A DNA stretch of 64,000 bases, taken from NCBI GenBank assembly GCA_934045075.1, contig OW203737.1:268001-332000 (forward strand), read 5' to 3'. Every line of letters begins with the position of its first letter. Position 1 is the stretch's first letter. The DNA comes from Yponomeuta sedellus. Lineage: Eukaryota > Arthropoda > Insecta > Lepidoptera > Yponomeutidae. Below the pieces are notes generated by a model. The model worked only from the letters and a program-made list of their open reading frames with translations, was not told the DNA's origin and did no database searches. A program made the position numbers and the translations under genes. Positions 8,228 through 62,739 of the stretch are shown here, piece after piece.

Positions 8228-10651
8228 TTAGACCCGAGCATGCGCACGGACGTGAGATGCAAATCCGAATTTGTTTTTAAATGTACGGTCGCAGCTGATG
8301 CAATAAAGTTGACCGGCTGAGTTAAATGTATAATTGTAGGAGGGCTTAGGACGAGTTTTCCGAGTCTGGCGTTTGGCATCGAGGTCTGCATGACGCGCTT
8401 GTTCAAAAGCAGCGGTGCCTTCGGTAATAGCTTTTCGCCAATCTGGTCTTAGCTCGGCAAGCTTCTCCCACGTCTTGACTGATATATTGCTCGAGACTAG
8501 GTGGCGCTTCAAGACATCTTTATACCGAAGGTATTGACCACCTACTGTGCGTTTTCCGCAACTAAGCTGAGAGTAAAAAACAGCCTTCGGCAGTCTCGAA
8601 GAGTCCATCCGCACCACGTGTCCGCACCACCTCAGTTGTCCCTTCATTATGAGACACTCCATGCCTGTCATTTTAGTTCGACGTAAAATCTCCGTATTAG
8701 GAACACGATCCTCCCAGCTCACACGTAAGATAGCCCGAAGGCATCTCATGTGAAAGGTGTCAAGGCGCCGAATGTCACCTCTGTAAAGGCACCATGTCTC
8801 CGACGCATAAAGCAAAATAGGTAGTATAATTGCTTTGTAAACGAGCATTTTGGTCTGAAGTTTCAAATCGTGTTCCTTCCAAACTCTTTGTTGGAGCTTG
8901 CCAAAGGCCGCCGCAGCTCTAGCTATTCGTGTAGACATTTCGGAGTCCAGACGGTTGTCACTACATAATAAGCTCCCGAGGTACCGGAAAGATTGCACCT
9001 CTTCAAGCTTCTTGCCGTTGAGTGTGAGTGCAACATCACTTGCAGGTCCACCTCTAGCCGGTTGCTTAAGAACTTGGGTTTTAGAAACACTTATCACTAA
9101 ACCAAAATTGCGACAAGACTCGTCTAGATTGTCCAGATATTGCTGCAGATGTTCCATGCTGTCAGCCATAAGACAAACATCATCGGCATACAGTACCTCC
9201 AAAATGGACAGTTGTGTGACTTTATTTTTGGCTCTGAAACGCGACAAATCAAAGATACTTTTATCGGACCTAACGCTGAGCATAATTTGTCCATTACAGC
9301 GCTTTAGAGCCTCCTTCATAACGGCAGCAAAATAGATGGCAAAAAGCGTCGGAGCCATAACGCAACCCTGCTTAACGCCGCTCGTAACTGGGAAACGGTC
9401 CGTGAAGTTGCTCTCGTGTTGCACAGTAGCCATCATGCCATCATGAAATTCGCGCACTATCTTCACAAACTTCTCGGGACACCCTATTTTCTTTAAAATG
9501 ATCCAGAGAGCAGCTCTTGGAACTCGGTCAAAGGCTTTCTCTAGATCGACAAAACACATGTAGAGGTCACGGTGTTGTTCCAAGCATTTTTCTTGGAGCT
9601 GTTTGACCACAAAAATTCCATCAACTGTGCCTCTATTTGGACGAAAGCCGTACTGGGTTTCTGGAAGAATTGTCTCTGCCAGTTTGTTCAGCCTCATATT
9701 CACAATATGTGAAAGGACTTTGCCTGCTACGCAGATCAAAGATATGCCGCGATATGAGCCACAATCTGACATGTCTCCCTTTCCTTTGTATAGCTTACAT
9801 ATCGAGGCATCTTTCCAGTCTTGTGGTACAGCTTCTAAATCCCATGTTTTCAAGACCAATTCAAACAACCTGTTATGTATGTGTGGTCCCCCGTATTTAT
9901 ATATCTCGGAAGGCAGGCTGTCGGAACCGGGAGCTTTGCCATTCTTTAGTCGCCTTATTGCCTGCATGAACTCGTCAAAAGAAGGTGGATCTTGAAGTTC
10001 ACTTGACAAGGGCAAGTTTTCAAGTGACTCTAGGTAGGCAAGATTGGCACCGTGGCTATTGGGGTTGAGCACTTCTTCGAAGTGTTCCGCCCATCGTGAG
10101 AGAACTTCTTGAGGGTCAGTAAGTCGCTTGGTCTTATCACGCGAGAAAACTGGAGCTGTCTGTTTACGTCGACGGCCAAAGACAGTTTTCAACCCTTCAA
10201 AGAATTTACCAGTTTGGTTGGAGTCTGCAAATCTCTGAAGTTCCTCAGCTTTTAGCTGCCACCAACGATTTTTTAGGGCCCGCACTTTACACTTGAGACC
10301 TCGCTGAATTTGTCTACGTTGCTGAGTAGGGACTGTCCTATTAGTTATAGCCTGTCTGTGTTCATCAATGAGTTTCCGCAGTTCCGCATCAGAGTCATCA
10401 AACCAGTCGTGATTTTTCTTTTGCGGTTTGCCAATAATCTGCTGAGAACAGTCACGTAGCCTGCTTGAAAATTTGTGCCAATCTTCATCTACTGAAGAGT
10501 CTAAAACAGCGCCCCATTCAGATTTGCCAAACTCAATATCAAGGTCTTGCTGTAATTTCTTCGCGTGGATTAGCTTCCCGACAGCTAGTCTCGCAGGGAT
10601 TTTGTGTTCTGCTCTGCGTGGCGGCTTGTAGCATAACCTCATTTTCCTCAT
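8228..10651 (-). CDS. LINE-A reverse transcriptase with C-terminal C2H2 finger
   Basis: This 807-codon open frame copies LINE RNA into DNA at a nicked target. RT motifs visible: FVDLEKAFDR at residues 367-376, GVKQG at 425-429, and the catalytic YADD at 488-491. A 'WCGHVVRMD' region follows in the thumb/C-terminal part. The last 25 residues form a C2H2 finger (C784, C787, H800, H804) that probably binds nucleic acid. The frame has no breaks, so the copy is young. The first ATG is not the true start: the ORF originally continued upstream into the endonuclease at 13765-14657, and residues 1-3 come from the inserted DNA. About 771 bp of this RT region is duplicated, inverted, at 10662-11432. Confidence 0.9.
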   Translation of the reverse strand: MRKMRLCYKPPRRAEHKIPARLAVGKLIHAKKLQQDLDIEFGKSEWGAVLDSSVDEDWHKFSSRLRDCSQQIIGKPQKKNHDWFDDSDAELRKLIDEHRQAITNRTVPTQQRRQIQRGLKCKVRALKNRWWQLKAEELQRFADSNQTGKFFEGLKTVFGRRRKQTAPVFSRDKTKRLTDPQEVLSRWAEHFEEVLNPNSHGANLAYLESLENLPLSSELQDPPSFDEFMQAIRRLKNGKAPGSDSLPSEIYKYGGPHIHNRLFELVLKTWDLEAVPQDWKDASICKLYKGKGDMSDCGSYRGISLICVAGKVLSHIVNMRLNKLAETILPETQYGFRPNRGTVDGIFVVKQLQEKCLEQHRDLYMCFVDLEKAFDRVPRAALWIILKKIGCPEKFVKIVREFHDGMMATVQHESNFTDRFPVTSGVKQGCVMAPTLFAIYFAAVMKEALKRCNGQIMLSVRSDKSIFDLSRFRAKNKVTQLSILEVLYADDVCLMADSMEHLQQYLDNLDESCRNFGLVISVSKTQVLKQPARGGPASDVALTLNGKKLEEVQSFRYLGSLLCSDNRLDSEMSTRIARAAAAFGKLQQRVWKEHDLKLQTKMLVYKAIILPILLYASETWCLYRGDIRRLDTFHMRCLRAILRVSWEDRVPNTEILRRTKMTGMECLIMKGQLRWCGHVVRMDSSRLPKAVFYSQLSCGKRTVGGQYLRYKDVLKRHLVSSNISVKTWEKLAELRPDWRKAITEGTAAFEQARHADLDAKRQTRKTRPKPSYNYTFNSAGQLYCISCDRTFKNKFGFASHVRAHARV
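9115..9885. repeat. Left arm of the 771-bp inverted repeat
   Basis: Pairs base by base with 10662-11432 (position sums are 20547). The boundaries are sharp: outside 9885/10662 and 9115/11432 the bases differ. The encoded RT peptides of the two arms are the same throughout the stretch compared. The spacer is 776 bp. Confidence 0.9.
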
Positions 10652-10661
10652 AACCTCACCT

Positions 10662-11432
10662 CACACATACATAACAGGTTGTTTGAATTGGTCTTGAAAA
10701 CATGGGATTTAGAAGCTGTACCACAAGACTGGAAAGATGCCTCGATATGTAAGCTATACAAAGGAAAGGGAGACATGTCAGATTGTGGCTCATATCGCGG
10801 CATATCTTTGATCTGCGTAGCAGGCAAAGTCCTTTCACATATTGTGAATATGAGGCTGAACAAACTGGCAGAGACAATTCTTCCAGAAACCCAGTACGGC
10901 TTTCGTCCAAATAGAGGCACAGTTGATGGAATTTTTGTGGTCAAACAGCTCCAAGAAAAATGCTTGGAACAACACCGTGACCTCTACATGTGTTTTGTCG
11001 ATCTAGAGAAAGCCTTTGACCGAGTTCCAAGAGCTGCTCTCTGGATCATTTTAAAGAAAATAGGGTGTCCCGAGAAGTTTGTGAAGATAGTGCGCGAATT
11101 TCATGATGGCATGATGGCTACTGTGCAACACGAGAGCAACTTCACGGACCGTTTCCCAGTTACGAGCGGCGTTAAGCAGGGTTGCGTTATGGCTCCGACG
11201 CTTTTTGCCATCTATTTTGCTGCCGTTATGAAGGAGGCTCTAAAGCGCTGTAATGGACAAATTATGCTCAGCGTTAGGTCCGATAAAAGTATCTTTGATT
11301 TGTCGCGTTTCAGAGCCAAAAATAAAGTCACACAACTGTCCATTTTGGAGGTACTGTATGCCGATGATGTTTGTCTTATGGCTGACAGCATGGAACATCT
11401 GCAGCAATATCTGGACAATCTAGACGAGTCTT
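10662..11432 (+). repeat. Right arm of the inverted repeat (LINE-A RT piece)
   Basis: Sense-oriented copy of LINE-A RT codons, from the FELVLKTWDLEAVPQDWKD region to just after the YADD block, matching the minus-strand element at 9885-9115. It begins and ends abruptly inside the coding region. Confidence 0.9.
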
Positions 11433-13183
11433 CGTATAGTTCACGTATAGTTCTTCCCGCGAATAAAGATGACGAGCTGCCAACATTTTTTGACAATCCT
11501 GATAAAATAAACGAGAACTTCCTCAATGTCCCAGGAAATGCTGATGTGACAATTTCAGACTTGACATTTTACGAGTTTGGGCGTTGCGGCGACAAGATCT
11601 TTAGCCTCCAACCAGTTACGGTTGAGAAAGTTGCGAAGGCGCTGACGGGCATACGCACTAGTGCAAAGGGAGTGGACCAAGTGACTATTGACATGATATT
11701 GCTGACTTTGCCGACGACTCTTGACATTCTGACAACTATTGTTAATATTAGCATTACGACCATGACCTTTCCGTCAATTTGGAAAATCGCACAAGTGACG
11801 CCGCTTCCTAAAAAAACCATTCCTATACATTTCACAGACCTACGTCCTATCAGCATCCTTCCCTGTGCATCCAAGATACTCGAGAGAGTGGTATGTGATC
11901 AGCTGTCGAAATACTTAGAGGACAATAGTATTCTGCCAGAACTGCAGTCGGGTTTTCGCAAGGGTCGATCGACCGTCACCGCACTACTCGATGTAGTTGA
12001 CGACATTCTTCATGCAAGAGATGTTGGCCGTAGCACTCTACTGGTTTTACTAGATTTTTCTGGGGCTTTCGACAGCATAAGCATCCCTCTCCTGTTATCG
12101 AAGATGTCGTATTACGGATTTGATACAGCTACGGTGAAATGGTTTGACAGTTACCTCACCGACCGGGAGCAATCAGTCGGAATAAAGAAAATGGCTGGTG
12201 GGACGCTGTGGTCGTCCCTACGTCTCCTGACACGGGGAGTGCCACAGGGTTCCATTTTAGGACCGTTGCTTTTTATACTGTATAGTGCCGATATTACTGA
12301 TAGTATAAAGAGTAGTGACCATTACCACTTGTACGCTGACGACGTTCAGTTATACACGTCAAGTGCCCCATTGGACACAGCTGTTGCAGTACGTAATATA
12401 AATTTGGATCTCGATCGTATTGCTGCCTGGTCGAGAAGGAACTGTCTTGTCCTGAATCCTGGTAAGTCCAAGTACATAGTACTTGGAACTAAAAATCAAA
12501 TTCGTAATACGCTGGAAGTCCTTGCGACAAATTATGTAGCTATTGAGGGTCAACCCATAGCACGGGTGGAGGAGGCATGTAATCTCGGCCTACTTATTGA
12601 TCCTGAGTTGCGCTTTGAGAAGCACATAGTGCGGGTTGTGAGTAACTGCTTCTACCGTCTTAAGTTACTATACAGTATACGTGATTACCTAAGTGTGGAT
12701 TTGCGTGTCCACCTTTGTGAATCGCTTGTATTGTCTAGGCTGAACTACTGTGATGTTGTCATCCATGGTTGCATACTTGGTCGAACAAAAAGGCTTATAC
12801 AGCGTGTGCAAAACGCATGTGCACGCTATTGCTTCCAGATCCCACCCCGCTCCCACATCACTCCGTACCTATGTGGTGCAAATCTGCTAAACATGCAGGC
12901 GCGCAGACATCTGCACCTTGCCACGTTGCTGTTCGGTGTTGTACGTTATGAGACCCCTTTTTATTTATTTAAAAAGCTCACTTGGTCTAGTCAGGCCAGG
13001 TATTACAAAGTAAGGGCCATTCTACCACAGCATCGAACGGCAGCGTTCCGAGGCAGTTTCAGATTTGCCGCATCTAAGTGCTGGAATGATATTCCTCCTC
13101 CAATCCATGCTGCGACTGGTAGGCACGCTTTCAGACGAAAGTTTGGAGCTTATTTGCTGGAAATGCAGAAGTCCTATCCTTAA
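10679..13183 (+). CDS. Chimeric ORF: LINE-A RT piece fused to LINE-B RT
   Basis: An 834-codon open frame created by the junction at 11432/11433. Residues 1 to about 251 are the LINE-A RT fingers and palm, including its YADD block. The rest is LINE-B: a linker region, then LRPISILP, LLDFSGAFDS (about 457-466), GVPQGS (about 520) and YADDVQLY (Tyr about 552), with a C-terminus reading WNDIPPPIHAATGRHAFRR. The LINE-B style fits the CR1/Jockey group. LINE-B lacks its endonuclease, so the insertion is 5'-truncated and probably dead, although the RT frame is unbroken. The in-frame fusion is most likely accidental, and no promoter is evident. Confidence 0.75.
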   Translation: MFELVLKTWDLEAVPQDWKDASICKLYKGKGDMSDCGSYRGISLICVAGKVLSHIVNMRLNKLAETILPETQYGFRPNRGTVDGIFVVKQLQEKCLEQHRDLYMCFVDLEKAFDRVPRAALWIILKKIGCPEKFVKIVREFHDGMMATVQHESNFTDRFPVTSGVKQGCVMAPTLFAIYFAAVMKEALKRCNGQIMLSVRSDKSIFDLSRFRAKNKVTQLSILEVLYADDVCLMADSMEHLQQYLDNLDESSYSSRIVLPANKDDELPTFFDNPDKINENFLNVPGNADVTISDLTFYEFGRCGDKIFSLQPVTVEKVAKALTGIRTSAKGVDQVTIDMILLTLPTTLDILTTIVNISITTMTFPSIWKIAQVTPLPKKTIPIHFTDLRPISILPCASKILERVVCDQLSKYLEDNSILPELQSGFRKGRSTVTALLDVVDDILHARDVGRSTLLVLLDFSGAFDSISIPLLLSKMSYYGFDTATVKWFDSYLTDREQSVGIKKMAGGTLWSSLRLLTRGVPQGSILGPLLFILYSADITDSIKSSDHYHLYADDVQLYTSSAPLDTAVAVRNINLDLDRIAAWSRRNCLVLNPGKSKYIVLGTKNQIRNTLEVLATNYVAIEGQPIARVEEACNLGLLIDPELRFEKHIVRVVSNCFYRLKLLYSIRDYLSVDLRVHLCESLVLSRLNYCDVVIHGCILGRTKRLIQRVQNACARYCFQIPPRSHITPYLCGANLLNMQARRHLHLATLLFGVVRYETPFYLFKKLTWSSQARYYKVRAILPQHRTAAFRGSFRFAASKCWNDIPPPIHAATGRHAFRRKFGAYLLEMQKSYP

Positions 13184-13724
13184 TCCAGCACTTCCCTTAT
13201 TTTATTGGTATATATATATATATATAAGTATCGTTGTCAGGTTTATGTATTGTGGGATTTATATATCTGCTAGTTATGTTTATTTAATTTATTTGTATGT
13301 ACGAGTATTTTTACTATATTTATAATGTGCAATTATTATTGTATTGTCCATAATATGTATTGTATTATTATTATTGTAAATTGTACCGGGTAGCGGGGAA
13401 CAAAAAAAAAACCGGTCCCAACTGAAAATCAGTTTTGCTGGTGATGTGTTATTCGCAGCACACACCAGCAATGCATGCTGAGTTGGTGACATTTTTTTCT
13501 TGCCACGGAGGCACAATAGCTTGTTAAAAGATTTTACTGTTTTTTGTACTTCCAAATTGATTATACTATTTTTATTTTTAATGCACTAACCCGTGCTAAG
13601 GAACAAATTTTAAAAAAAATTTTTAGCCTCTAAATAGGTTTTTAAATTCCTAATTGATGTTCATCTTCCCCATTACTGTGTATTTTTTATGTTTGTGCAT
13701 TCGTGGCAATTTAAATAAATGTTT

Positions 13725-13764
<40 letters not shown>
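13184..13764 (+). other. LINE-B 3' UTR and (TTTC)n tail
   Basis: Follows the RT stop. Contains a (TA)n run at 13209-13227, a hairpin-like GTTTTGCTGGTGATG/CACACCAGCAATGCATGC segment, the small foldback copy at 13562-13646, AATAAATG near 13717, and the terminal (TTTC)n microsatellite. Confidence 0.7.
13562..13646. mobile_element. tRNA-foldback family, minimal copy (85 bp)
   Basis: Left end ATACTATTTTTATTTTTAAT then GCACTAACCCGTGCTAAGG; right end TTTTTAGCCTCTAAATAGGT then TTTTAAA. These are the same termini as the 5.2-kb array, but with no tRNA-like cassette between them. It is flanked by TTCCAAATTGAT (13550-13561) and TTCCTAATTGAT (13647-13658), 11 of 12 bases the same, consistent with a 12-bp target-site duplication. 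It lies inside the LINE-B 3' UTR, so it inserted after, or travelled with, LINE-B. Confidence 0.75.
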
Positions 13765-13767
<3 letters not shown>

Positions 13768-14657
13768 ATTTTGGACCTAATAAGACGATGATCAGTCCAA
13801 CCCTCCGCTCCTCGCATTGCTCTGGTAATTAGTACATCCTTTAGGTCACGTCTGCGTACTATAACATAGTCCAGCAGATGCCAGTGTTTGGAGCGGGGGT
13901 GCATCCAGGAGGTCTTATACTTCTCAGGCAACCGAAAGAATGTATTGGTGATACTGAGATCAAATTCCGCACAGAAAGATAGAAGGTCGGTGCCATTTGT
14001 GTTGCATTTCCCAATACCATGTCGTCCCAGTACATCCGTCCAGGCATTAAAATCGGTACCAACGCGTGCGTTGAAGTCTCCGAGCAGAGCCACTTTATCG
14101 CAATATGGAATTTTGTGCAAAGCTTCCCGCAGATCCTCATAAAACTTCGCCTTATCGCCGTCAGACGCTTGAAGTGTAGGTGCGTATACACTCACCAGAT
14201 GGAGATACTTTCTCGGGGCGATATGTAAGCGCAGAGTCATGAGCCTGTCGTTGATACCTTTAGGAGGCTCGACTAAAGATTTTGCTAGCTGGTTTTTAAT
14301 AGCAAAACCAACACCACTTGCTGCTTTTTCTGAAGAAGGTTTACCACACCAGTAATAAGTGTACCCACCCAAATCTTCGCAAAGCTCACCACCATCCGCC
14401 AGATGAGTTTCGCTAATTGCTGCAATATCTATATTGTATCGTGACAATTCTCGAGCTATAAGGGCAGTCTTTCTCTCAGGGCATAGATTTCTGTCACTGT
14501 CTAATAATGTTCTTACATTCCATGTTGCGAAACTAAGAGTTGTAGGTTTATTAATTTTGTTTTTATTCCATTTACGACCACGATTATTTGGTGCCCAGGT
14601 GACCGCGGTTTGCCACCTAGGTAGGGGTTGGGACGAACTATTTTTAGGCCACCTTTT
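13765..14657 (-). pseudogene. LINE-A endonuclease (EEP) part, cut off from its RT
   Basis: An open frame on minus runs from 14657 (just after an in-frame stop at 14658-14660) to the insertion junction. Motifs of the exonuclease/endonuclease/phosphatase fold appear in order: ATWNVRTLLD (about 14525), AAISETHLADGG, LLGDFNARVGTD, and WTDHRLI at the end. This domain nicks the target DNA to prime reverse transcription. The frame has no internal stop, but the inserted (TTTC)n tail follows immediately and the protein cannot continue into RT. The first ATG in the frame is at 14447, inside the domain, so the true start is further upstream and is not resolved. Confidence 0.85.
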
Positions 14658-15361: not shown

Positions 15362-15475
15362 CTTGTAGGTCTCCACTGCTGGGCCACGGGTCTCTTCCTG
15401 CATAGTAGGAAGGATAGTTTATGACCTACCCTTCCTACTATGCGGAAGAGAGGGGGGTATGCCCCCTACACTTAC
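15362..15475. repeat. Repeat family R2 fragment with a hairpin
   Basis: CTCCACTGCTGGGCCACGGG then TCTCTTCCTGCA matches R2. It continues into an inverted repeat: CTTCCTGCATAGTAGGAAGG pairs with CCTTCCTACTATGCGGAAG across an 18-base loop. Confidence 0.5.
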
Positions 15476-21510: not shown

Positions 21511-21570
21511 ATATTTTTTTTAATGCCCTAACTCGTGCTAAGGACAATTTTAAAAACATATTTAGAGGCT
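21511..21570 (-). mobile_element. tRNA-foldback family, single-arm stub (60 bp)
   Basis: TTTTTAATGCCCTAACTCGT, GCTAAGGACAATTTTAAAAA and TTTAGAGGCT are the outer part of one arm of the family, without a tRNA-like cassette. It is flanked by AAGCGTGGTA (21501-21510) and AAGCGTGATA (21571-21580), a probable target-site duplication with one mismatch. Confidence 0.7.
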
Positions 21571-21580
21571 AAGCGTGATA

Positions 21581-25220: not shown

Positions 25221-25234
25221 AAGATTCATAATAT
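25221..25234. repeat. Left target-site duplication of the array
   Basis: AAGATTCATAATAT, identical to 30445-30458. Confidence 0.85.
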
Positions 25235-27897
25235 TACACTATTTTTATTTTTAATGCACTAACCCGTGCTAAGGAACAAATTTAAAAACCTATTTAGAGG
25301 CTAAAAATTTCACCCATGCCGGGATTCGAACCCGCAACCTCTGGCTATCCGTACCAGCGCTCTACCAATTGAGCCAATGGGCGACTCACGGCATCAGTGA
25401 AATTTCGAACCTCTTTACAATATTCTCTGTATTACGTACAGGCAGCGACATCTGACTTAAGCAAATTGCATTACTTACAGCCCCGACTACCTACTTTGCA
25501 GTTAGGTTTAACATCGGAACGATATCACTGTACCCACATGATTACACTATTTTTATTTTTAATGCACTAACCCGTGCTAAGGAACAAATTTAAAAACCTA
25601 TTTAGAGGCTAAAAATTTCACCCATGCCGGGATTCGAACCCGCAACCTCTGGCTATCCGTACCAGCGCTCTACCAATTGAGCCAATGGGCGACTCACGGC
25701 ATCAGTGAAATTTCGAACCTCTTTACAATATTCTCTGTATTACGTACAGGCAGCGACATCTGACTTAAGCAAATTGCATTACTTACAGCCCCGACTACCT
25801 ACTTTGCAGTTAGGTTTAACATCGGAACGATATCACTGTACCCACATGATTACACTATTTTTATTTTTAATGCACTAACCCGTGCTAAGGAACAAATTTA
25901 AAAACCTATTTAGAGGCTAAAAATTTCACCCATGCCGGGATTCGAACCCGCAACCTCTGGCTATCCGTACCAGCGCTCTACCAATTGAGCCAATGGGCGA
26001 CTCACGGCATCAGTGAAATTTCGAACCTCTTTACAATATTCTCTGTATTACGTACAGGCAGCGACATCTGACTTAAGCAAATTGCATTACTTACAGCCCC
26101 GACTACCTACTTTGCAGTTAGGTTTAACATCGGAACGATATCACTGTACCCACATGATTACACTATTTTTATTTTTAATGCACTAACCCGTGCTAAGGAA
26201 CAAATTTAAAAACCTATTTAGAGGCTAAAAATTTCACCCATGCCGGGATTCGAACCCGCAACCTCTGGCTATCCGTACCAGCGCTCTACCAATTGAGCCA
26301 ATGGGCGACTCACGGCATCAGTGAAATTTCGAACCTCTTTACAATATTCTCTGTATTACGTACAGGCAGCGACATCTGACTTAAGCAAATTGCATTACTT
26401 ACAGCCCCGACTACCTACTTTGCAGTTAGGTTTAACATCGGAACGATATCACTGTACCCACATGATTACACTATTTTTATTTTTAATGCACTAACCCGTG
26501 CTAAGGAACAAATTTAAAAACCTATTTAGAGGCTAAAAATTTCACCCATGCCGGGATTCGAACCCGCAACCTCTGGCTATCCGTACCAGCGCTCTACCAA
26601 TTGAGCCAATGGGCGACTCACGGCATCAGTGAAATTTCGAACCTCTACAATATTCTCTGTATTACGTACAGGCAGCGACATCTGACTTAAGCAAATTGCA
26701 TTACTTACAGCCCCGACTACCTACTTTGCAGTTAGGTTTAACATCGGAACGATATCACTGTACCCACATGATTACACTATTTTTATTTTTAATGCACTAA
26801 CCCGTGCTAAGGAACAAATTTAAAAACCTATTTAGAGGCTAAAAATTTCACCCATGCCGGGATTCGAACCCGCAACCTCTGGCTATCCGTACCAGCGCTC
26901 TACCAATTGAGCCAATGGGCGACTCACGGCATCAGTGAAATTTCGAACCTCTTTACAATATTCTCTGTATTACGTACAGGCAGCGACATCTGACTTAAGC
27001 AAATTGCATTACTTACAGCCCCGACTACCTACTTTGCAGTTAGGTTTAACATCGGAACGATATCACTGTACCCACATGATTACACTATTTTTATTTTTAA
27101 TGCACTAACCCGTGCTAAGGAACAAATTTAAAAACCTATTTAGAGGCTAAAAATTTCACCCATGCCGGGATTCGAACCCGCAACCTCTGGCTATCCGTAC
27201 CAGCGCTCTACCAATTGAGCCAATGGGCGACTCACGGCATCAGTGAAATTTCGAACCTCTTTACAATATTCTCTGTATTACGTACAGGCAGCGACATCTG
27301 ACTTAAGCAAATTGCATTACTTACAGCCCCGACTACCTACTTTGCAGTTAGGTTTAACATCGGAACGATATCACTGTACCCACATGATTACACTATTTTT
27401 ATTTTTAATGCACTAACCCGTGCTAAGGAACAAATTTAAAAACCTATTTAGAGGCTAAAAATTTCACCCATGCCGGGATTCGAACCCGCAACCTCTGGCT
27501 ATCCGTACCAGCGCTCTACCAATTGAGCCAATGGGCGACTCACGGCATCAGTGAAATTTCGAACCTCTTTACAATATTCTCTGTATTACGTACAGGCAGC
27601 GACATCTGACTTAAGCAAATTGCATTACTTACAGCCCCGACTACCTACTTTGCAGTTAGGTTTAACATCGGAACGATATCACTGTACCCACATGATTACA
27701 CTATTTTTATTTTTAATGCACTAACCCGTGCTAAGGAACAAATTTAAAAACCTATTTAGAGGCTAAAAATTTCACCCATGCCGGGATTCGAAACCGCAAC
27801 CTCTGGCTATCCGTACCAGCGCTCTACCAATTGAGCCAATGGGCGACTCACGGCATCAGTGAAATTTCGAACCTCTTTACAATATTCTCTGTATTAT
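25235..27897 (-). repeat. Left arm of the tRNA-like array (308-bp units)
   Basis: Head-to-tail units start at 25233, 25541, 25849, 26157, 26465, 26771, 27079, 27387 and 27695: period 308, except 306 for the fifth, which lost two T's. Each unit carries a tRNA-like cassette on the minus strand at 25312-25382, 25620-25690, 25928-25998, 26236-26306, 26544-26614, 26850-26920, 27158-27228, 27466-27536 and 27774-27844. Units look almost identical. The last cassette has a B-box change (CGAAACC for CGAACCC on +) and its unit stops at the palindrome centre. Confidence 0.95.
25312..25382 (-). tRNA. tRNA-like cassette (representative of the left arm)
   Basis: This 71-base cassette has an acceptor-like GCCCATT pairing with ATGGGT, a D arm GCTC...GAGC with A box GGCTCAATTGG, and an anticodon-arm stem CTGGT/GCCAG. 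The loop is ACGGATA. The T arm contains GGTTCGAATCC, a perfect B box. Read as a tRNA, the anticodon would be GGA, but base 33 is C instead of T, there is one linker base instead of two before the D arm, and the T stem has a G-G mismatch. It is therefore more likely a Pol III promoter derived from a tRNA than a translating tRNA. Confidence 0.55.
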
Positions 27898-27905
27898 TGT
27901 AGAGC
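27890..27905. other. Centre of the 5.2-kb palindrome
   Basis: The left arm runs CTCTGTATTA and then switches at about 27897 to TGTAGAGCGCTGG, which lies inside a plus-strand tRNA-like cassette. The two arms therefore meet at non-equivalent points of the unit, with no symmetrical loop sequence. Confidence 0.85.
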
Positions 27906-30444
27906 GCTGGTACGGATAGCCAGAGGTTGCGGGTTCGAATCCCGGCATGGGTGAAATTTTTAGCCTCTAAATAGGTTTTTAAATTTGTTCCTTAGCACGG
28001 GTTAGTGCATTAAAAATAAAAATAGTGTAATCATGTGGGTACAGTGATATCGTTCCGATGTTAAACCTAACTGCAAAGTAGGTAGTCGGGGCTGTAAGTA
28101 ATGCAATTTGCTTAAGTCAGATGTCGCTGCCTGTACGTAATACAGAGAATATTGTAAAGAGGTTCGAAATTTCACTGATGCCGTGAGTCGCCCATTGGCT
28201 CAATTGGTAGAGCGCTGGTACGGATAGCCAGAGGTTGCGGGTTCGAATCCCGGCATGGGTGAAATTTTTAGCCTCTAAATAGGTTTTTAAATTTGTTCCT
28301 TAGCACGGGTTAGTGCATTAAAAATAAAAATAGTGTAATCATGTGGGTACAGTGATATCGTTCCGATGTTAAACCTAACTGCAAAGTAGGTAGTCGGGGC
28401 TGTAAGTAATGCAATTTGCTTAAGTCAGATGTCGCTGCCTGTACGTAATACAGAGAATATTGTAAAGAGGTTCGAAATTTCACTGATGCCGTGAGTCGCC
28501 CATTGGCTCAATTGGTAGAGCGCTGGTACGGATAGCCAGAGGTTGCGGGTTCGAATCCCGGCATGGGTGAAATTTTTAGCCTCTAAATAGGTTTTTAAAT
28601 TTGTTCCTTAGCACGGGTTAGTGCATTAAAAATAAAAATAGTGTAATCATGTGGGTACAGTGATATCGTTCCGATGTTAAACCTAACTGCAAAGTAGGTA
28701 GTCGGGGCTGTAAGTAATGCAATTTGCTTAAGTCAGATGTCGCTGCCTGTACGTAATACAGAGAATATTGTAAAGAGGTTCGAAATTTCACTGATGCCGT
28801 GAGTCGCCCATTGGCTCAATTGGTAGAGCGCTGGTACGGATAGCCAGAGGTTGCGGGTTCGAATCCCGGCATGGGTGAAATTTTTAGCCTCTAAATAGGT
28901 TTTTAAATTTGTTCCTTAGCACGGGTTAGTGCATTAAAAATAAAAATAGTGTAATCATGTGGGTACAGTGATATCGTTCCGATGTTAAACCTAACTGCAA
29001 AGTAGGTAGTCGGGGCTGTAAGTAATGCAATTTGCTTAAGTCAGATGTCGCTGCCTGTACGTAATACAGAGAATATTGTAAAGAGGTTCGAAATTTCACT
29101 GATGCCGTGAGTCGCCCATTGGCTCAATTGGTAGAGCGCTGGTACGGATAGCCAGAGGTTGCGGGTTCGAATCCCGGCATGGGTGAAATTTTTAGCCTCT
29201 AAATAGGTTTTTAAATTTGTTCCTTAGCACGGGTTAGTGCATTAAAAATAAAAATAGTGTAATCATGTGGGTACAGTGATATCGTTCCGATGTTAAACCT
29301 AACTGCAAAGTAGGTAGTCGGGGCTGTAAGTAATGCAATTTGCTTAAGTCAGATGTCGCTGCCTGTACGTAATACAGAGAATATTGTAAAGAGGTTCGAA
29401 ATTTCACTGATGCCGTGAGTCGCCCATTGGCTCAATTGGTAGAGCGCTGGTACGGATAGCCAGAGGTTGCGGGTTCGAATCCCGGCATGGGTGAAATTTT
29501 TAGCCTCTAAATAGGTTTTTAAATTTGTTCCTTAGCACGGGTTAGTGCATTAAAAATAAAAATAGTGTAATCATGTGGGTACAGTGATATCGTTCCGATG
29601 TTAAACCTAACTGCAAAGTAGGTAGTCGGGGCTGTAAGTAATGCAATTTGCTTAAGTCAGATGTCGCTGCCTGTACGTAATACAGAGAATATTGTAAAGA
29701 GGTTCGAAATTTCACTGATGCCGTGAGTCGCCCATTGGCTCAATTGGTAGAGCGCTGGTACGGATAGCCAGAGGTTGCGGGTTCGAATCCCGGCATGGGT
29801 GAAATTTTTAGCCTCTAAATAGGTTTTTAAATTTGTTCCTTAGCACGGGTTAGTGCATTAAAAATAAAAATAGTGTAATCATGTGGGTACAGTGATATCG
29901 TTCCGATGTTAAACCTAACTGCAAAGTAGGTAGTCGGGGCTGTAAGTAATGCAATTTGCTTAAGTCAGATGTCGCTGCCTGTACGTAATACAGAGAATAT
30001 TGTAAAGAGGTTCGAAATTTCACTGATGCCGTGAGTCGCCCATTGGCTCAATTGGTAGAGCGCTGGTACGGATAGCCAGAGGTTGCGGGTTCGAATCCCG
30101 GCATGGGTGAAATTTTTAGCCTCTAAATAGGTTTTTAAATTTGTTCCTTAGCACGGGTTAGTGCATTAAAAATAAAAATAGTGTAATCATGTGGGTACAG
30201 TGATATCGTTCCGATGTTAAACCTAACTGCAAAGTAGGTAGTCGGGGCTGTAAGTAATGCAATTTGCTTAAGTCAGATGTCGCTGCCTGTACGTAATACA
30301 GAGAATATTGTAAAGAGGTTCGAAATTTCACTGATGCCGTGAGTCGCCCATTGGCTCAATTGGTAGAGCGCTGGTACGGATAGCCAGAGGTTGCGGGTTC
30401 GAATCCCGGCATGGGTGAAATTTTTAGCCTCTAAATAGGTTTTT
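27898..30444 (+). repeat. Right arm of the tRNA-like array
   Basis: The same 308-bp unit in the opposite orientation. It holds a partial cassette (27898-27952) and then complete cassettes on + at 28190-28260, 28498-28568, 28806-28876, 29114-29184, 29422-29492, 29730-29800, 30038-30108 and 30346-30416. The spacing is exactly 308. The arm ends at CTCTAAATAGGTTTTT, 28 bases after the last cassette, and is followed directly by the right target-site duplication. The 2-bp deletion of the fifth left unit is not mirrored here, so the right arm is not a simple reflected copy of the left. Confidence 0.95.
28190..28260 (+). tRNA. tRNA-like cassette (representative of the right arm)
   Basis: Same 71-base cassette as at 25312-25382 but on the plus strand, with intact A and B boxes. 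Downstream sequence has an ATTTTTAGCC T-run and later AGGTTTTTAAA, either of which could terminate Pol III transcription. Transcripts could therefore be short unless termination is leaky. Confidence 0.55.
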
Positions 30445-30458
30445 AAGATTCATAATAT
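30445..30458. repeat. Right target-site duplication of the array
   Basis: AAGATTCATAATAT, identical to 25221-25234, so the 5210-bp array sits between direct repeats as one inserted unit. Confidence 0.85.
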
Positions 30459-32099: not shown

Positions 32100-32520
32100 T
32101 TAGTGCAAACAGCGGATAGGCGATTACAAGCGCAGAGGTGAATCTGAGGTGAGCCTCAGATTCTTAGGTTTCCTCACGATTTTCTTTAGAGTTAGCGACT
32201 GGCAATGCTACAATAACTTCATCATTTTTTTAAAAACCTATTTAGAGGCTAAAAGTCCACCCATGCCGGGATTCGAACCCGCGACCTTTGGCTATCCGTG
32301 CCAGCACTCTTTCCAACTGAGCTAATGGGCGACTCATCGGCATCAGTGAAATTTCGAACCTCTTTACAATATTCGTACAGCCAGCTACGGAATTATTAGC
32401 CTCTAAATAGGTTTTTAAAAAATTGTCCTTAGCACGGGTTAGTGCATAAAAAATAATATAAATTCACAAATGTTCGTAACTCAGGAAACAATGTCTTTGC
32501 TACGAGTACATACAGCTTCT
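32100..32520 (-). mobile_element. SINE family S2 split by a tRNA-foldback copy
   Basis: The S2 tail at 32100-32220 (TTTCCTCACGATTTTCTTTA) and its body at 32461-32510 (AATTCACAAATGTTCGTAAC) are one SINE interrupted by the foldback copy at 32222-32460. This dates that copy as younger than the SINE. Confidence 0.65.
32222..32460 (-). mobile_element. tRNA-foldback family copy with one tRNA-like cassette
   Basis: Left: TAAAAACCTATTTAGAGGCT then a minus-strand cassette (B box GGGATTCGAACCCGCGACCT on +; A box AACTGAGCTAATGGG) and CATCAGTGAAATTTCGAACC. Right: TTAGCCTCTAAATAGGTTTT then TTAGCACGGGTTAGTGCATA. Compared with other copies, the whole element is reversed: the long tail is on the right. Target-site duplications are not clear (CAATAACTTCA versus AATATAAATTCA). 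Confidence 0.7.
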
Positions 32521-39539: not shown

Positions 39540-39827
39540 CACTAGACATAATAAAAACTGTTTTTATACGGTTATATATTTATATATACTAATATATACT
39601 ATATAGGTCAGAAAAAAAAATATATATATACTAATTTTATATTTTACTCAATTATTTACATTTTTACAATTTTCTGACATTTCGGCACTTTCAAGTGCCG
39701 TGGTCTCGCATGCCATCCTTCAGTCAGTCATCCGAGACCACGGCACCTGAAAAAGTGCCGAAACGACGGAAAATTGTAAAAAATGTAAATAAACGAGTAA
39801 AATCCGTATAAAAACAGTTTTTTTTTA
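39540..39827. mobile_element. Foldback element with 12-bp target-site duplications
   Basis: An imperfect palindrome of 288 bp. The left AAAACTGTTTTTATACGG matches the right CCGTATAAAAACAGTTTT, and the inner CATTTCGGCACTTTC / GTGGTCTCG are mirrored by CGAGACCACGGCACC / AAGTGCCGAAACG. TGAAAACACGCT is repeated exactly on both sides (39528-39539 and 39828-39839). Fragments of the family are at 17335-17500 and 36478-36520. Confidence 0.8.
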
Positions 39828-42700: not shown

Positions 42701-42951
42701 TTGATTTAGGAGAAGGCAAGTCAGCGAGAGAAAACACTCAGCTATTTTGTTCTAAGATGATTTAATTAATAAAATCAATCTCCACCATGACGTCTCATAA
42801 TTCATAGAAACGTAGGTAGGTAAGTTTGTAAAAAACCTTTTTACAATTTTTACGTCACGACCATAGAGAATTAGCTTTTTTATGTTGAAATGTCAGATTA
42901 TCAAATGTGAAATAGGTATTAACCAAGAATTAGAAAAATAATACTTTCCTA

Positions 42952-43101
42952 TTATATTATTTTTAATGCAGTAACCCGTGCTAAGGACAATTTTAAATAC
43001 CTATTCAGAGGCTAAAAATTCCACCCATGCCGGGATTCGAACCCGCGACCTCTGGCTATCCGTGCATGGGTGGAATTTTTAGCCTCTAAATAGGTTTTTA
43101 G
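42952..43101. mobile_element. tRNA-foldback family copy with truncated cassette
   Basis: Left end ATTTTTAATGCAGTAACCCG then TGCTAAGGACAATTTTAAAT; half of a minus-strand cassette to GGCTATCCGTG. It then switches to the opposite strand at CATGGGTGGAATTTTTAGCC and ends TCTAAATAGGTTTTTA. Flanks AATACTTTCCTA (42940-42951) and AATACTTTTCTA (43102-43113) form a 12-bp target-site duplication with one difference. Confidence 0.8.
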
Positions 43102-43113
43102 AATACTTTTCTA

Positions 43114-51894: not shown

Positions 51895-52352
51895 TATTAT
51901 ATTATTTTTAGTGCACTAACCCGTGCTAAGGACAACTTTAAGAAACCTATTTAGATGCTAAAAATTCCACCCATGCCGGGATTCGAACCCGTGACCTCTG
52001 GCTATCCGTGCCAGCCCTCTTTCCAACTGAGCTAATGGGCGACTTACCGGCATCAGTGAAATTTCGAACCTCTTTACAATATTCTCTGTATTACGTACTG
52101 TACGTACAGAGAATACCTATTGTAAAGAGAATATACGTAATACAGAGAATATTGTAAAGAGAATATTCTCTGTATTACGTTCTGTACGTAGTACGTAATA
52201 CAGAGAATATTGTAAAGAGGTTCGAAATTTCATTGATGCCGGTGAGTCGCCCATTAGCTCAGTTGGAAAGAGCGCTGGCACGGATAGCCAGAGGTCGCGG
52301 GTTCGAATCCTGGCATGGGTGGAATTTTTAGCCTCTAAATAGGTTTTTTATT
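51895..52352. mobile_element. tRNA-foldback family copy with two opposed cassettes
   Basis: Left half: ATTTTTAGTGCACTAACCCG, then a minus-strand tRNA-like cassette (about 51968-52042) and GAAATTTCGAACCTCTTTAC. Centre (52080-52210): nested inverted copies of ACGTAATACAGAGAATATTG. Right half: the same arm on +, with a cassette at about 52248-52319 (AGCTCAGTTGGAAAGAGCGC; GGGTTCGAATCCTGG), ending GCCTCTAAATAGGTTTTTT. The two halves could fold into one long hairpin. Target-site duplications are not readable in the AT-rich flanks. Confidence 0.8.
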
Positions 52353-52379
52353 TTTTTATTTCAATAAAATTGTTAATAA

Positions 52380-53043: not shown

Positions 53044-53449
53044 CAATTTGCTCAATTGGTAGAGCGCTGGTACGGATAGCCAGAGGTTGCGGGTTCGAAT
53101 CCCGGCATGGGTGAAAATTTTTAGCCTCTAAATAGGTTTTTAAATTTGTTCCTTAGCACGGGTTAGTGCATTAAAAATAGAAATAGTGTAATCATGTGGG
53201 TACAGTGATATCGTTCCGATGTTAAACCTGACTGCAAAGTAGGTGGTCGGGGCTGTAAGTAATGCAATTTGCTTAAGTCAGATGTCGCTGCCTGTACGTA
53301 ATACAGAGAATATTGTAAAGAGGTTCGAAATTTCACTGATGCCGTGAGTCGCCCATTGGCTCAATTGGTAGAGCGCTGGTACGGATAGCCAGAGGTTGCG
53401 GGTTCGAATCCCGGCATGGGTGAACATTTTTAGCCTCTAAATAGGTTTT
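53044..53449 (+). mobile_element. Retroposed 1.3-unit copy of the tRNA array
   Basis: Starts inside a tRNA-like cassette (CTCAATTGGTAGAGCGC), runs through one full 308-bp type unit including the array-specific segment (CATGTGGGTACAGTGATATC; GTCAGATGTCGCTGCCTGTA) and a second complete cassette (about 53352-53422), and ends CTCTAAATAGGTTTT. TAAGTTCTCATCT is repeated at 53031-53043 and 53450-53462. Several base differences from the 25-30 kb array show it is an independent copy. Confidence 0.85.
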
Positions 53450-53469
53450 TAAGTTCTCATCTGTTATAT

Positions 53470-55824: not shown

Positions 55825-57764
55825 TCACTCTTCACCACTACTGTTGTCATCTCCTGAAATATCCACATCTTCATCTTCTTTAATATTTTGCTGCAGTAGG
55901 GAGTTGTAGTATTGTGTGTTCACTGGATTTGAAAGAAACTTTGCCAAGTTTATTATATCTTTTAGTTTTCCTTCCTTTAAAGGTAATGGACCCTGGTACA
56001 GAGGTTCAAATGATATATTTTCAGCTGACATCTTTTTTTTATTTCTTATACATATTGGAAGCCAAGGGCCGCAGTAAGAATCTCTAACAAACACATTTTT
56101 ATCTTCATTCTGTTTAATTTTTAGCATCCTGATGCCTTTTATTTTCATTGCCGGTCTACTTTGTTTCAAAAAGTATGGTTCTAACCCTTTGTTAATGTTC
56201 AGGAAATCATCTTGACTAACATCAAATGGTGAGGGCTTTTCTCTAGCTTCTTTAATAAGATGGTCCCAATCACTTTGAACTTCTGCTATGTTCACTTTTT
56301 TTTTAGCTGACACCAGACTGAAGTCCTGATCATTGGGCAAATAGCTGTGACCGCGAATGGGAAAAATATACAAAACTTTTTTAAAAAGCTTGAGACATAC
56401 TACTAGGTAGAAAAGAAATCGAACCATAGTATAATTTTTATTTTGCCCTGCGCAACCATCACTGAAAATAACACAAGTTTCATTGTGGGCACCAACATCA
56501 TTAAAATATTTTAGAAGCATAGATGTCACATTATTCTGTCCTTTACCACCAACCATCTCATCATAAACGTTCATGTAAGCTCTATCATTGCCTAAATCAT
56601 GAATTCCAAATAGGAAATACCACAGCTGGCGAGCATAAAATACATCTGAAGTTTTGATGTGTGGAAGGGGGAGGTTTTGCATGTAGTCAAATGAAATGCA
56701 ACTTAATTGTCCCATCTTAGCTTTACCTCGGTAAAATTTCTTTAAATTTGTAAAAGTGTCAGCCTTTGTTTTATGTAATTTATGTTCAAATTCCAAACTT
56801 TTCTTCTCATTTTCATCACTGCAGGCAGCAATTTTATTAATCATAGAATCACAATATGCGCATGTATCACTCCTTGGTAATCCAAATTTTATATTAAACT
56901 GATTTGTGAACATTTCCCAGTAAACTGGGTAACTAACATTAATGCGGTATAAGTTTAAAAACATCTTCCACATTTTTTTGACGCTTAAATTTTCAGGCAA
57001 ATAAAAGCGGTTTGGGTTCTTTCTGATAGAGTAGTGTGATTGCCTTACTTTAAATGATTTTATGTGAGCTCTCACTAAGTAAGTAACTTCAACAGGAGTT
57101 TTCTTGTACCTGTTGGTTGTATGTTTACCCCTCTGGTCAGTGGGTGCTTTACCAAATTCAATGAGATATGCTTGAATTCGCCTCAGTCTTGCTCTTTTAA
57201 TACCATAAAGGCTAAGAAATGCCTTTTGACAAACAGCAATATCTTGGTTGTTAGCCCGGACCTTATAGGTATAGTAAGCGTTATGGCTTTGCAAGGTCTC
57301 TTCATGAAAATCTTGATCATCATTATTATTTCCGTCATCAAGTTTACGAGACCTGCGTCGTTGAATAGCGTGAACAGTGATAAGGCCTGCTAAATGAGAA
57401 TCTTGAGCATTTTTATCTTGTAGGTTATTAAAGATATCCAAGAGCTTTTGTTGTAGGTCTTCACAATGATCAAAACATGAATTTCGGCAGCTGGAAAAGA
57501 TAAAACAAAATATAAGGTAAGGTCCACATAGAATCAAAGCAATAATCTAGACTAAAACCATTAATTAAAACTTTATTATTACTATTATTACCTGCAACGC
57601 ATCCCAGATTGTCGTTTCGGTACTGTTTTACCAACATGATTTACATGTTCTAGGCCTTGAACTTTCAGGTTTTTAATAATAGCTTCCTTTTTTTCTTTTC
57701 TCCTCCGTTTAGCCGGCCAATTAGTTTCATTTTCAGCATCACTTTCGACAAAATTTAAGTCCAT
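55825..57764 (-). CDS. Putative transposase, DUF7869-like, two exons
   Basis: Exon 1 57764-57592 (ATG 57764), intron with donor TGCAG/GTAATA and acceptor TTTTCCAG/C, exon 2 57490-55825. Joined, the frame is 612 codons without a break. Exon 1 is acidic then basic (KRRRKEKKEA, a likely nuclear signal). A Cys cluster spans the junction (C57, C59, C63, C67). Further on are CAYC (C268, C271), SFDYMQN (D326), IFSDGCAGQNKN (D402), GHSYLPNDQDFS (D445/D447) and an acidic C-terminus. D326, D402 and D445/447 fit an RNase H-like DDD/E catalytic triad, by inference. The SDGCxGQN motif is what I recall for DUF7869 proteins of insects and cnidarians. The terminal repeats around it argue that it moves this element. 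The longer ATG-open frame to 57537 reads through the intron and is not the start. Confidence 0.8.
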
Positions 57765-60349: not shown

Positions 60350-60662
60350 GGCATTCAAATATGGGTTAGAGTCTTGATAGTGGACATTCAACTAAGGGTT
60401 TGATTCTTTGGTAGCGGATATTTAAATAAAAGTTAGACTCTTTGTCAGCCAACATTCAAATAAAGTTTAACTCTTTGGTAGCGGACTATCAAATATGGGT
60501 TTGAGTCTTTGGTAGCGGACAATTGAATAAAAAATAGACTCTTAGGTGGCGGATATTCTAATAAGGGTTATACTTTTTGAAAGCGGACATACAAATAAGA
60601 GTTAGGCTCGTTGGTAGCGGACATTCGAATAAAGGTTAGATTTTTTGTTAGAGGACATCCAA
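60350..60662 (+). repeat. 34-bp minisatellite, about nine diverged units
   Basis: Consensus by eye: GACATTCAAATAAGGGTTAG then ACTCTTTGGTAGCG. Units are 33-34 bp and diverged by several bases each, so the array is old. Confidence 0.75.
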
Positions 60663-60999
60663 ATTAGTATAGCCAATTGCAAATAGAGAAAATATTTACA
60701 CATTCTCTGTAAAAACGCTACTTCGTTATAGAAGCGCATATTTTACGAAAATTCGCGCGAACTCTACGTTTAGCCCGGTTCCGTCGCTGATTAGCCTGAA
60801 AGCGAAACTATTCGCGAGGCACTCGACTCTATTCGCGGAGGCACACGGTTCTATTTCGCCTGGCACGGCGGCCGTAATAATAGAATCACTCGACCTCTTG
60901 GAGAGCGAGTGTTTCCCGCGAACGCGAACCTACACGTGGCGAAACTGTGAATTTTTCGTAGTCTTACCCCCCATTTGGTGAACTATCTATAGTAACCCC
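60663..60999. other. No gene; GC-balanced patch
   Basis: 60715-60960 contains repeated TTCGCG/CGCGAA strings (ATTCGCGCGAAC; ATTCGCGAGGCACTCG; ATTCGCGGAGGCACACGG; CCCGCGAACGCGAACC). Could be a decayed repeat or regulatory DNA. Confidence 0.3.
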
Positions 61000-61110: not shown

Positions 61111-61684
61111 CGGCTACTTTTTATCTTGCCCTTTGCAAATGCATCCTCTATTTGGTCGAAGTAACATAATAATAATTAATATTTCCATGGATACACCATA
61201 AATAAAATTAGGGCTTAGTCAAAGTCGGAGAATCGGAGAGAAACCTAGTCGGACTTTTCCGATATAACAACACCCGTAAGTAGATCCGGACTATAAGTCT
61301 ACAATATAGTGATATTTTTTTTTAGTTAGCCTGTTTTGTGTCCCACTGCTGGGTAAAGGCCTCCCCCTCTTTCTCCATAGTTATATATTAGGTTTTGCTT
61401 AATAAATATTGCGATGAGACCAGTTAAATATATATATTAAACTGGTGTCATCGCAATGTTTAGCTATAGCTACATAGATTTATAATATAATCTGCTGCCT
61501 ACGACTTCGTTCGCAAATACTTTTTAAGGGAATTTATTGGGAAAAAAGTAACCTAGCTACTATTTCAGACCATAATCTATCTCTGTGGTGAATCTTATCC
61601 CAAGTTCTCAAGTTCGTTTCGCCTTTCTGGCGAGACTGAGTGTCAAACATCCATATAAATGTTCACATTACAATATTGGTGTAG
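61111..61684. other. No gene; LINE tail piece
   Basis: GTGTCCCACTGCTGGGTAAA then GGCCTCCCCCTC (61337) is a reversed RTE-like tail. Otherwise nothing. Confidence 0.4.
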
Positions 61685-62597: not shown

Positions 62598-62739
62598 TAT
62601 AGGAAATTAAATGTACGTACAAATTAATCACGCCAGCATAACTGTTGAATAAAAAAAAAATATGGTAATACGATATTTTTTTTTTATTCCACAGTTTTGT
62701 TGGCGTGATTAATTTGTACGTAAATTTAATTTCCTTCCT
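62598..62739. repeat. Foldback palindrome, arms about 62 bp
   Basis: Left GAAATTAAATGTACGTACAA then ATTAATCACGCC; right GGCGTGATTAATTTGTACGT then AAATTTAATTTCC. Mirrored AATAAAAAAAAAATA / TATTTTTTTTTTATT strings lie near the centre. Confidence 0.8.

Follow-up and report, generated by a model that had tools for sequence, protein, structure and literature searches.

A Palindromic Array inside a 14-bp Duplication

The window analysed here is a 64,000-nucleotide stretch of the Yponomeuta sedellus genome (GCA_934045075.1, contig OW203737.1, designated C18:268001-332000 in the 657.5-Mb assembly of 57 contigs). It was found that a 5,210-bp palindrome of 308-bp tRNA-like units occupies positions 25235-30444 of the window and is flanked by perfect 14-bp direct repeats. 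The plus strand of the window has the repeat sequence, AAGATTCATAATAT, at just two places, 25221 and 30445, where it abuts the block exactly on both sides. On its sequence features, namely A and B boxes, shortness, dispersal, a very high copy number, and flanking duplications of variable length, the repeated element is a tRNA-derived short interspersed element (SINE). The features of the block are as follows.

25221..25234, no strand: target-site duplication, left copy AAGATTCATAATAT, 14 bp
25235..27896, minus strand: sense arm, 2,662 bp, about 8.6 units, outer end at unit position 128 (A-rich tail)
27897..27898, no strand: palindrome centre, the bases separating the inner ends of the two arms
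27899..30444, plus strand: inverted arm, about 2,546 bp, about 8.3 units, outer end at unit position 79
30445..30458, no strand: target-site duplication, right copy AAGATTCATAATAT, 14 bp
25309..25384, minus strand: first of nine minus tRNA-like cassettes (ARAGORN, Rfam, box search)
25617, 25925, 26233, 26541, 26847, 27155, 27463 (starts) and 27775-27843 (ninth), minus strand: further tRNA-like cassettes
28188..28263, plus strand: first of eight complete plus tRNA-like cassettes (ARAGORN, Rfam)
28496, 28804, 29112, 29420, 29728, 30036, 30344 (starts), plus strand: further complete tRNA-like cassettes

The unit is numbered from window position 28210. A unit anchor, GAGCGCTGG, is present in nine copies in each arm, with a spacing of 308 bp save for one of 306 bp. 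An earlier sequence-only reading had nine minus units meeting eight and a fraction on plus; the measured arms are about 8.6 and 8.3 units, with nine anchors in both. The inner end of the sense arm lies about 72 nucleotides ahead of the ninth anchor (about -72), and the two inner ends are about 70 unit positions apart, leaving a hairpin loop of about equal size. A T5 run forms the outer end of the inverted arm, and the AA that comes next belongs to the duplication (with the AA counted, the end is at unit position 81). With the two central bases added, the length of this arm is 2,548 bp. All eight whole units of the right arm are identical, and the left arm differs by a single substitution and a deletion of 2 bp. 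These two private changes over 5.2 kb and the undamaged duplication suggest that the insertion is recent.

The mirror-image block and its enclosing 14-bp duplication, as reported in the sequence-only reading, are real. The flanking repeat scores 13.4, and none of 513 flank pairs from unrelated loci reaches 10. By a cruder control, 2 of 300 random window positions matched the score, but such positions may land inside the array or other repeats.

The Unit and Its Promoter Cassettes

I divide the unit into a leader, the tRNA-like part that bears the A and B boxes, the trailer, a hairpin of small size (GCACGGGTTAGTGC), the A-rich tail reaching to position ~130, and a spacer of ~100 bp. Leader and trailer are imperfect inverted copies of each other, agreeing at 21 of 26 bases, and none of 2000 shuffles matched as well. 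The covariation analysis of this leader-trailer helix gave no compensatory pair among 5 sequences. The whole unit folds better than its shuffles (z -4.7). The trailer has two T5 runs, at unit positions 56-60 and 75-79. Runs of this kind terminate transcription by RNA polymerase III (Pol III), and most Pol III transcripts should thus end after ~100 nucleotides.

The scan for tRNA genes and Pol III promoters that had been proposed as a check revealed cassettes in both arms by ARAGORN, Rfam, and box search. ARAGORN with the bacterial code found 8 + 8 tRNA-like cassettes, and the Rfam tRNA model added the ninth minus cassette with a lower score. The box search found 9 B boxes and 8 A boxes on the plus strand, and 8 B boxes and 9 A boxes on the minus strand; a substitution alters the B box of the ninth minus cassette, and the A box is missing from the first plus cassette (27899). 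Thus, 8 cassettes on each strand have both boxes in exact form. The opposed orientation of the promoters was described correctly in the sequence-only reading, while its count of seventeen complete promoters falls to 16, and its intact A and B boxes in every unit fail in the two cassettes at the centre. ARAGORN names the cassette Ser-GGA, but a functional tRNA gene can be rejected, as, by eye, the anticodon loop lacks U33 and there is no long variable arm. Judging from these sequence features, the cassettes of the array are the promoter head of a SINE, not tRNA genes.

The SINE Family in the Window and in the Genome

Six further copies of the family were found in the window: four inverted pairs, one single copy with the end near unit position 130, and one single copy with the end near 82. 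The outer ends of the four pairs are near unit positions 80-88 and 118-132. Hereafter the two end classes are called 82 (TTTTTAA, in one arm) and 130 (A-rich tail, in the other arm).

13558..13648, no strand: young-subfamily inverted pair, 130/82, duplication TTCCWAATTGAT with one mismatch
21511..21572, minus strand: single copy, 130 end, 5'-truncated, duplication TAAGCGTGRTA with one mismatch
32229..32456, no strand: old-subfamily inverted pair, 82/130, weak duplication
42949..43104, no strand: old-subfamily inverted pair, 130/82, duplication AATACTTTYCTA with one mismatch
51895..52357, no strand: old-subfamily monomer pair, 130/82, rearranged centre (by eye; split by the script), duplication unclear
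53046..53455, plus strand: young-subfamily copy of ~1.3 tandem units with only the 82 end, perfect 13-bp duplication TAAGTTCTCATCT

The duplications at 13.6, 21.5, and 43 kb are 11 or 12 bp long. When the five window pairs were aligned, including the array, the two arms of each locus fell by eye into one subfamily: young for the 13.6-kb pair and the array, and old for the pairs at 32, 43, and 52 kb.

The family is highly abundant in the genome. An 18-base tail motif has 62,703 exact places (control 0), a 28-base motif of the young spacer has 18,045 (reversed control 0), and the old-subfamily tail has 2,316 (control 0). The first 100 spacer places in the list all come from contig C1; neighbours at ~308 bp are frequent there, with runs of up to four. 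The opposed neighbours within 1.5 kb among these places are minus then plus in six of six cases, which is the head-in arrangement. Outside this genome, the unit patterns gave nothing in viral contigs, where a 15-mer matched 69 times with none of the matches unit-like by BLAST. The pattern search of genome contigs gave 9 bacterial contigs, one of which (L002) weakly matched 32 unit bases, and the phage search gave only the tRNA-Trp of Caulobacter phage CcrSC in two records.

I performed a census of insertions. Fifty loci were read and two overlaps were dropped, and the remaining 48 loci and the window were analysed with a script. Since these loci come from the first 2.3 Mb of one contig plus the window, the inverted-pair rate is an estimate. 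The script called 112 insertions, comprising 59 head-in pairs and 53 singles, besides two tail-in neighbours; it may split one insertion in two, as at 51895-52357 and in loci L115 and L121. By their outer ends, the 59 pairs are 48 of type 82/130, one 82/82, and no 130/130, with an unclassified end in the other 10. A duplication with a score of at least 6.5 surrounds both arms in 39 of the 48 82/130 pairs, compared with 25 of 513 when flanks were paired between loci; with a score of at least 10, the numbers are 29 of 48 and 0 of 513. The proposal that the block is a single retroposition-like insertion is thereby supported, and it extends to the family. How common the inverted form is across the family, and that its outer ends are of two kinds (~82 and ~130), had escaped the sequence-only reading. 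Altogether, 59 insertions have a duplication: 39 82/130 pairs, 10 single-82 copies, 9 single-130 copies, and one other. Pairs make up 21 of the 31 duplicated insertions with the search motif and 18 of the 28 without it (the latter with 5 single-82 and 5 single-130 copies). The duplications are 10-16 bp long with a mode of 12 (37 pairs), and arms of two to four units are present among the sampled insertions.

Two further arrangements were observed. At C1:16820828-16821048, two old-subfamily tails lie tail-in at a distance of 188 bp (places only). In locus L121 (3254-4571), unit position 241 is joined to unit position 120, and the odd join is identical in both arms.

Junctions, Nicks, and Shared Variants

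The outer ends recur across pairs and the inner ends scatter, so that pairs seem to form anew at each insertion. The inner ends of the two arms gave a Spearman coefficient of 0.25 (p 0.13, 39 pairs), and arm lengths are mostly very unequal. At both outer ends, there is microhomology between the duplication and the unit, with a mean of 2.48 nucleotides on the 82 side (23 clean junctions of 37; null 0.88) and 2.5 nucleotides on the 130 side (12 clean junctions of 37; null 0.73). None of 1000 permutations reaches the mean of either side.

The nick preferences of 37 pairs are mirror images, AAC/W on the left and W/GTT on the right. The left nick has C at -1 in 16 of 37 (p 8e-5) and A at -2 in 22 of 37, and the right nick has G at +1 in 14 of 37 (p 6e-4) and T at +2 in 22 of 37. 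It is likely that a single enzyme is responsible for the two nicks, with two similar 3' overhangs as the result.

In the 32 pairs with enough overlap, 39 variants relative to the unit are common to both arms and 86 are not (ratio 0.312). Permuted arms gave a mean ratio of 0.079 and a maximum of 0.174, and none of 2000 permutations reached the observed value. The best private sharing is in locus L109, which has four arm-shared variants listed for no other locus. Odd unit spacings are also shared between arms, one of 118 bp (C1:1925945-1926831) and one of 303 bp (C1:1962234-1963096). Thus, both arms probably came from one source sequence, which need not have been one molecule.

The second priming site would lie at a predicted hairpin, with paired probabilities of 0.40 for its T5 and 0.66 for the next seven bases. 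The sense arm ends within unit positions 30-110, near this site, in 16 of 39 pairs and passes beyond it in 23. Accounting for both patterns would require collision as well as displacement, or else two RNAs from one source. The overlaps of the two complementary DNAs (cDNAs) in the SINE pairs reach about 2.5 kb.

Probable Insertion by Double-Ended Priming

These results suggest that the block is probably one SINE insertion made by target-primed reverse transcription with priming from both sides of the staggered break (twin priming), the array probably coming from a nine-unit RNA copied twice. The anatomy, the duplications, the recurrent outer ends, the variable inner junctions, the microhomology, and the arm-shared variants are observed here; an RNA template and a partner long interspersed element (LINE) I infer. 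Of the two 3' overhangs, one would anneal near the A-rich tail of the SINE RNA (unit position ~130); for the other, the annealing site would be internal and fixed, at UUUUUAAAUUU (~79-85). Both cDNAs would be extended toward the 5' end of the RNA and would join there to give a head-in inverted pair, which would end up inside one duplication, mostly of 12-14 bp. The best reading is that double-ended priming on one source RNA is the usual insertion mode of this SINE. Given this family background, the array, a case of unusual size, needs no special process beyond a long template. That template would be one RNA of nine tandem units (~2.66 kb), copied nearly to full length twice rather than enlarged by later growth. 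I judge the nine-unit RNA to be likelier than growth in place, and less certain than the double priming itself.

A wider reading has about an even chance of being right. The RNA would have two priming sites, the 3' A-rich tail and a U5A3 at the predicted hairpin ~50 nucleotides upstream, making double-ended priming normal. An endonuclease cutting both strands at W/GTT would aid the process, and the genome would have been filled with palindromes, some of them many units long.

Several observations weigh against the interpretation of the block as a double-primed insertion. The end classes were set after viewing the same loci, which form a single set with no independent replicate. Since single-82 and single-130 copies with duplications exist, the 82 end can act alone. 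Two old-subfamily tails that lie head-in at C2:1326133-1326272, 107 bp apart (places only; tails at 1326133 and 1326240), may be a 130/130 exception. Whole nick triplets are rarer than their single bases, AAC in 10, GTT in 5, and both in 2 of the 37 pairs (elsewhere in the flanks, 14 of 296 and 6 of 222, respectively). Many arm-shared variants are present at several loci and resemble subfamily markers, the 303-bp spacing is also present at C1:1161157/1161460, and the arms of the array, being nearly variant-free, share no variants. Arm lengths are unequal in most other pairs, so that the equal arms of the array could be luck. At the L1 rate of inversion, five inverted copies among seven in the window are only mildly unusual (p 0.03, or 0.08 without the array), while the Alu rate gives p 4e-18. 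Finally, no partner LINE was found; in the window, the SINE tail is confined to family copies, and no genome-wide search for the partner LINE was made.

Alternative Explanations

The array may instead have started as a short double-primed insertion with one or two units per arm, which then lengthened on the spot through unequal exchange or slippage during replication. The partial dimer at 53046-53455 supplies the direct overlap that such growth requires, arms of two to four units occur, and near-identity of units is expected after recent growth. However, both arms must have reached nine anchors independently while keeping the usual outer ends of the family. Moreover, the sense arm has its inner end at about -72, and the old monomer pair at 52 kb has its own inner ends close to that position, at -76. 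I regard growth in place as unlikely, but as a possibility to be reckoned with.

It is improbable that the tandem units arose at insertion, whether from a circular RNA reverse-transcribed in rolling-circle fashion or from a reverse transcriptase jumping end to end between templates. Tandem units do occur with constant length, but the unit joins of the array are exact with no added bases, no ribozyme family was matched in 28150-28850 (E up to 5), and the outer ends are not arbitrary.

A palindromic master copied whole by ordinary priming, with central deletions varying the inner junctions, would account for the recurrence of outer ends. Against it, the arms of a locus share variants above the level of permuted arms (in part as subfamily markers), and the five window pairs each have arms of one subfamily. 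In addition, single-82 insertions with duplications exist, and the 82-side microhomology indicates priming at that end. This explanation is thus quite improbable. Slightly more doubtful still is the idea that the array has been kept as a source of double-stranded RNA from opposed Pol III promoters. The 16 exact cassettes are opposed and the unit folds well, but the two T5 runs should halt Pol III soon after the tRNA-like part, and an inverted design found family-wide needs no local function.

Palindromes and tandem arrays are error-prone in sequencing and assembly, and a fold-back read or a mis-joined tandem could produce such a block. That this happened here is very hard to believe, since a fold-back would not yield an identical 14-bp repeat outside two differing outer ends, and 39 other or older pairs of like design, some ~10% diverged, have duplications.

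Other candidates were rejected. Segmental inversion or plain tandem growth without retroposition does not fit a duplication that encloses both arms in 39 of 48 pairs. One-way snap-back of a single cDNA does not suit every pair, as the inverted arm extends further 5' than the sense arm in 27 of 39 pairs but not in 12. Two unrelated RNAs choosing their 3' ends independently should give frequent homotypic pairs, and only one of the 49 fully classified pairs is homotypic. As to the 82 end being a Pol III transcript end, one of 118 outer ends (unit position 66, L128) is near the first T5 run, and the microhomology extends past the second, indicating internal priming; the single-82 insertions leave this idea open. 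A foldback or miniature inverted-repeat transposable element (MITE) does not fit ends that differ (~82 and ~130) and a duplication of varying length. For a retrozyme, no ribozyme family was found by Rfam in 28150-28850 (E up to 5), where the matches besides tRNA were three weak ones to two other families. A Helenus-type terminal-repeat retrotransposon in miniature (TRIM) has duplications of 4-5 bp according to the excerpted text of PMC10886601, in contrast to 10-16 bp here.

Neighbouring Features and Significance

Reverse-transcribed elements are also present elsewhere in the window. In a LINE reverse-transcriptase frame at 8228-11432, 771 bp of the interior are present a second time in inverted orientation (10662-11432 versus 9115-9885, 100% identical). 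This inverted LINE copy resembles the SINE pairs in its look, and no convincing target-site duplication was found around it (best 6 bp). The best-scoring named sequences among 120 listed relatives of the window LINE reverse transcriptase are lepidopteran (Tuta, Dendrolimus, Choristoneura, Cydia, Plutella, and Helicoverpa). A different reverse-transcriptase frame continues from the inverted piece at 11433-13183 in one open frame, so that two LINEs lie end to end. A LINE endonuclease fragment ending in a (TTTC) tract (13650-14657) adjoins the 13.6-kb SINE pair.

The window also contains a 573-residue open frame with DUF7869 (55825-57546) and a diverged tandem array whose periods are 34 and 101 bp (60352-60664). 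Self-comparison revealed other short palindromes, perhaps MITEs, at 39641-39803, 62601-62735, 61403-61462, and 15391-15451.

This SINE often inserts as an inverted pair, whereas elements as short as this very rarely do so in people. The family has tens of thousands of copies, and in the sample many or most are inverted pairs; it is a large natural data set on retroelement inversion and could help to show how such inversions come about. It bears on the base-pairing rules of second priming, the symmetry of the two nicks, and the joining of opposed cDNAs. The family also supplies the genome with long inverted repeats, from which hairpin RNA or unstable palindromes could result. As the present case shows, a palindromic array in an assembly can represent one insertion.

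Comparison with Known Systems

Twin priming of L1 was reportedly described by Ostertag and Kazazian in 2001. As in that process, the SINE pairs have opposed cDNAs in one duplication, internal second priming, and junction microhomology. The Twin SINE of Culex pipiens (Feschotte, 2001), reported to derive from a dimeric tRNA precursor and reportedly a direct dimer, may be comparable to the partial dimer at 53046-53455; it is not known to have an inverted mode. Like the array, retrozymes are built of tandem units, each a few hundred bases long, between duplications, but no ribozyme family was matched in the unit analysed here. No report of inverted-pair SINE insertion in insects was found among the literature matches listed, which lie mostly outside subscription papers and Repbase.

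The lepidopteran SINEs PxSE, HaSE, and Metulj (PMC8010984, PMC3272025, and PMC4016481, taken from excerpts and compared by description, not by sequence) resemble the present family in having a tRNA-like head with A and B boxes, a short length, and many copies. Unlike the present family, the excerpted descriptions have no inverted-pair mode, and the leader and trailer as imperfect inverted copies around the tRNA-like part likewise stand in contrast to them. A tRNA-bearing TRIM, the Helenus-type long terminal repeat element, is described in the excerpt of PMC10886601.

The insertion signatures of L1 and RTE-clade LINEs differ (PMC13295347). LINE reverse transcriptases are capable of template jumping and strand displacement, and twin priming has been described as an aberrant kind of second-strand synthesis that may be related (PMC6895275). 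Human insertions by twin priming are known that have deletions and duplications where the inversion lies (PMC12350158), and 5'-inverted L1 junctions show microhomologies (Kojima, PMC2912911). In that work, 639 of 2068 L1 copies (31%) but 1 of 5,554 Alu copies are 5'-inverted. Another study gave 18.4-21.9% for L1 inversions and 0.02% for germline Alu, with a median cDNA overlap of 12 bp where overlapping, and stated that the cause of the difference between L1 and Alu is unclear (PMC12016303). Unlike L1 and Alu, the SINE family of Y. sedellus is paired in 18 of 28 unselected duplicated insertions, with one recurrent second site and overlaps to ~2.5 kb.

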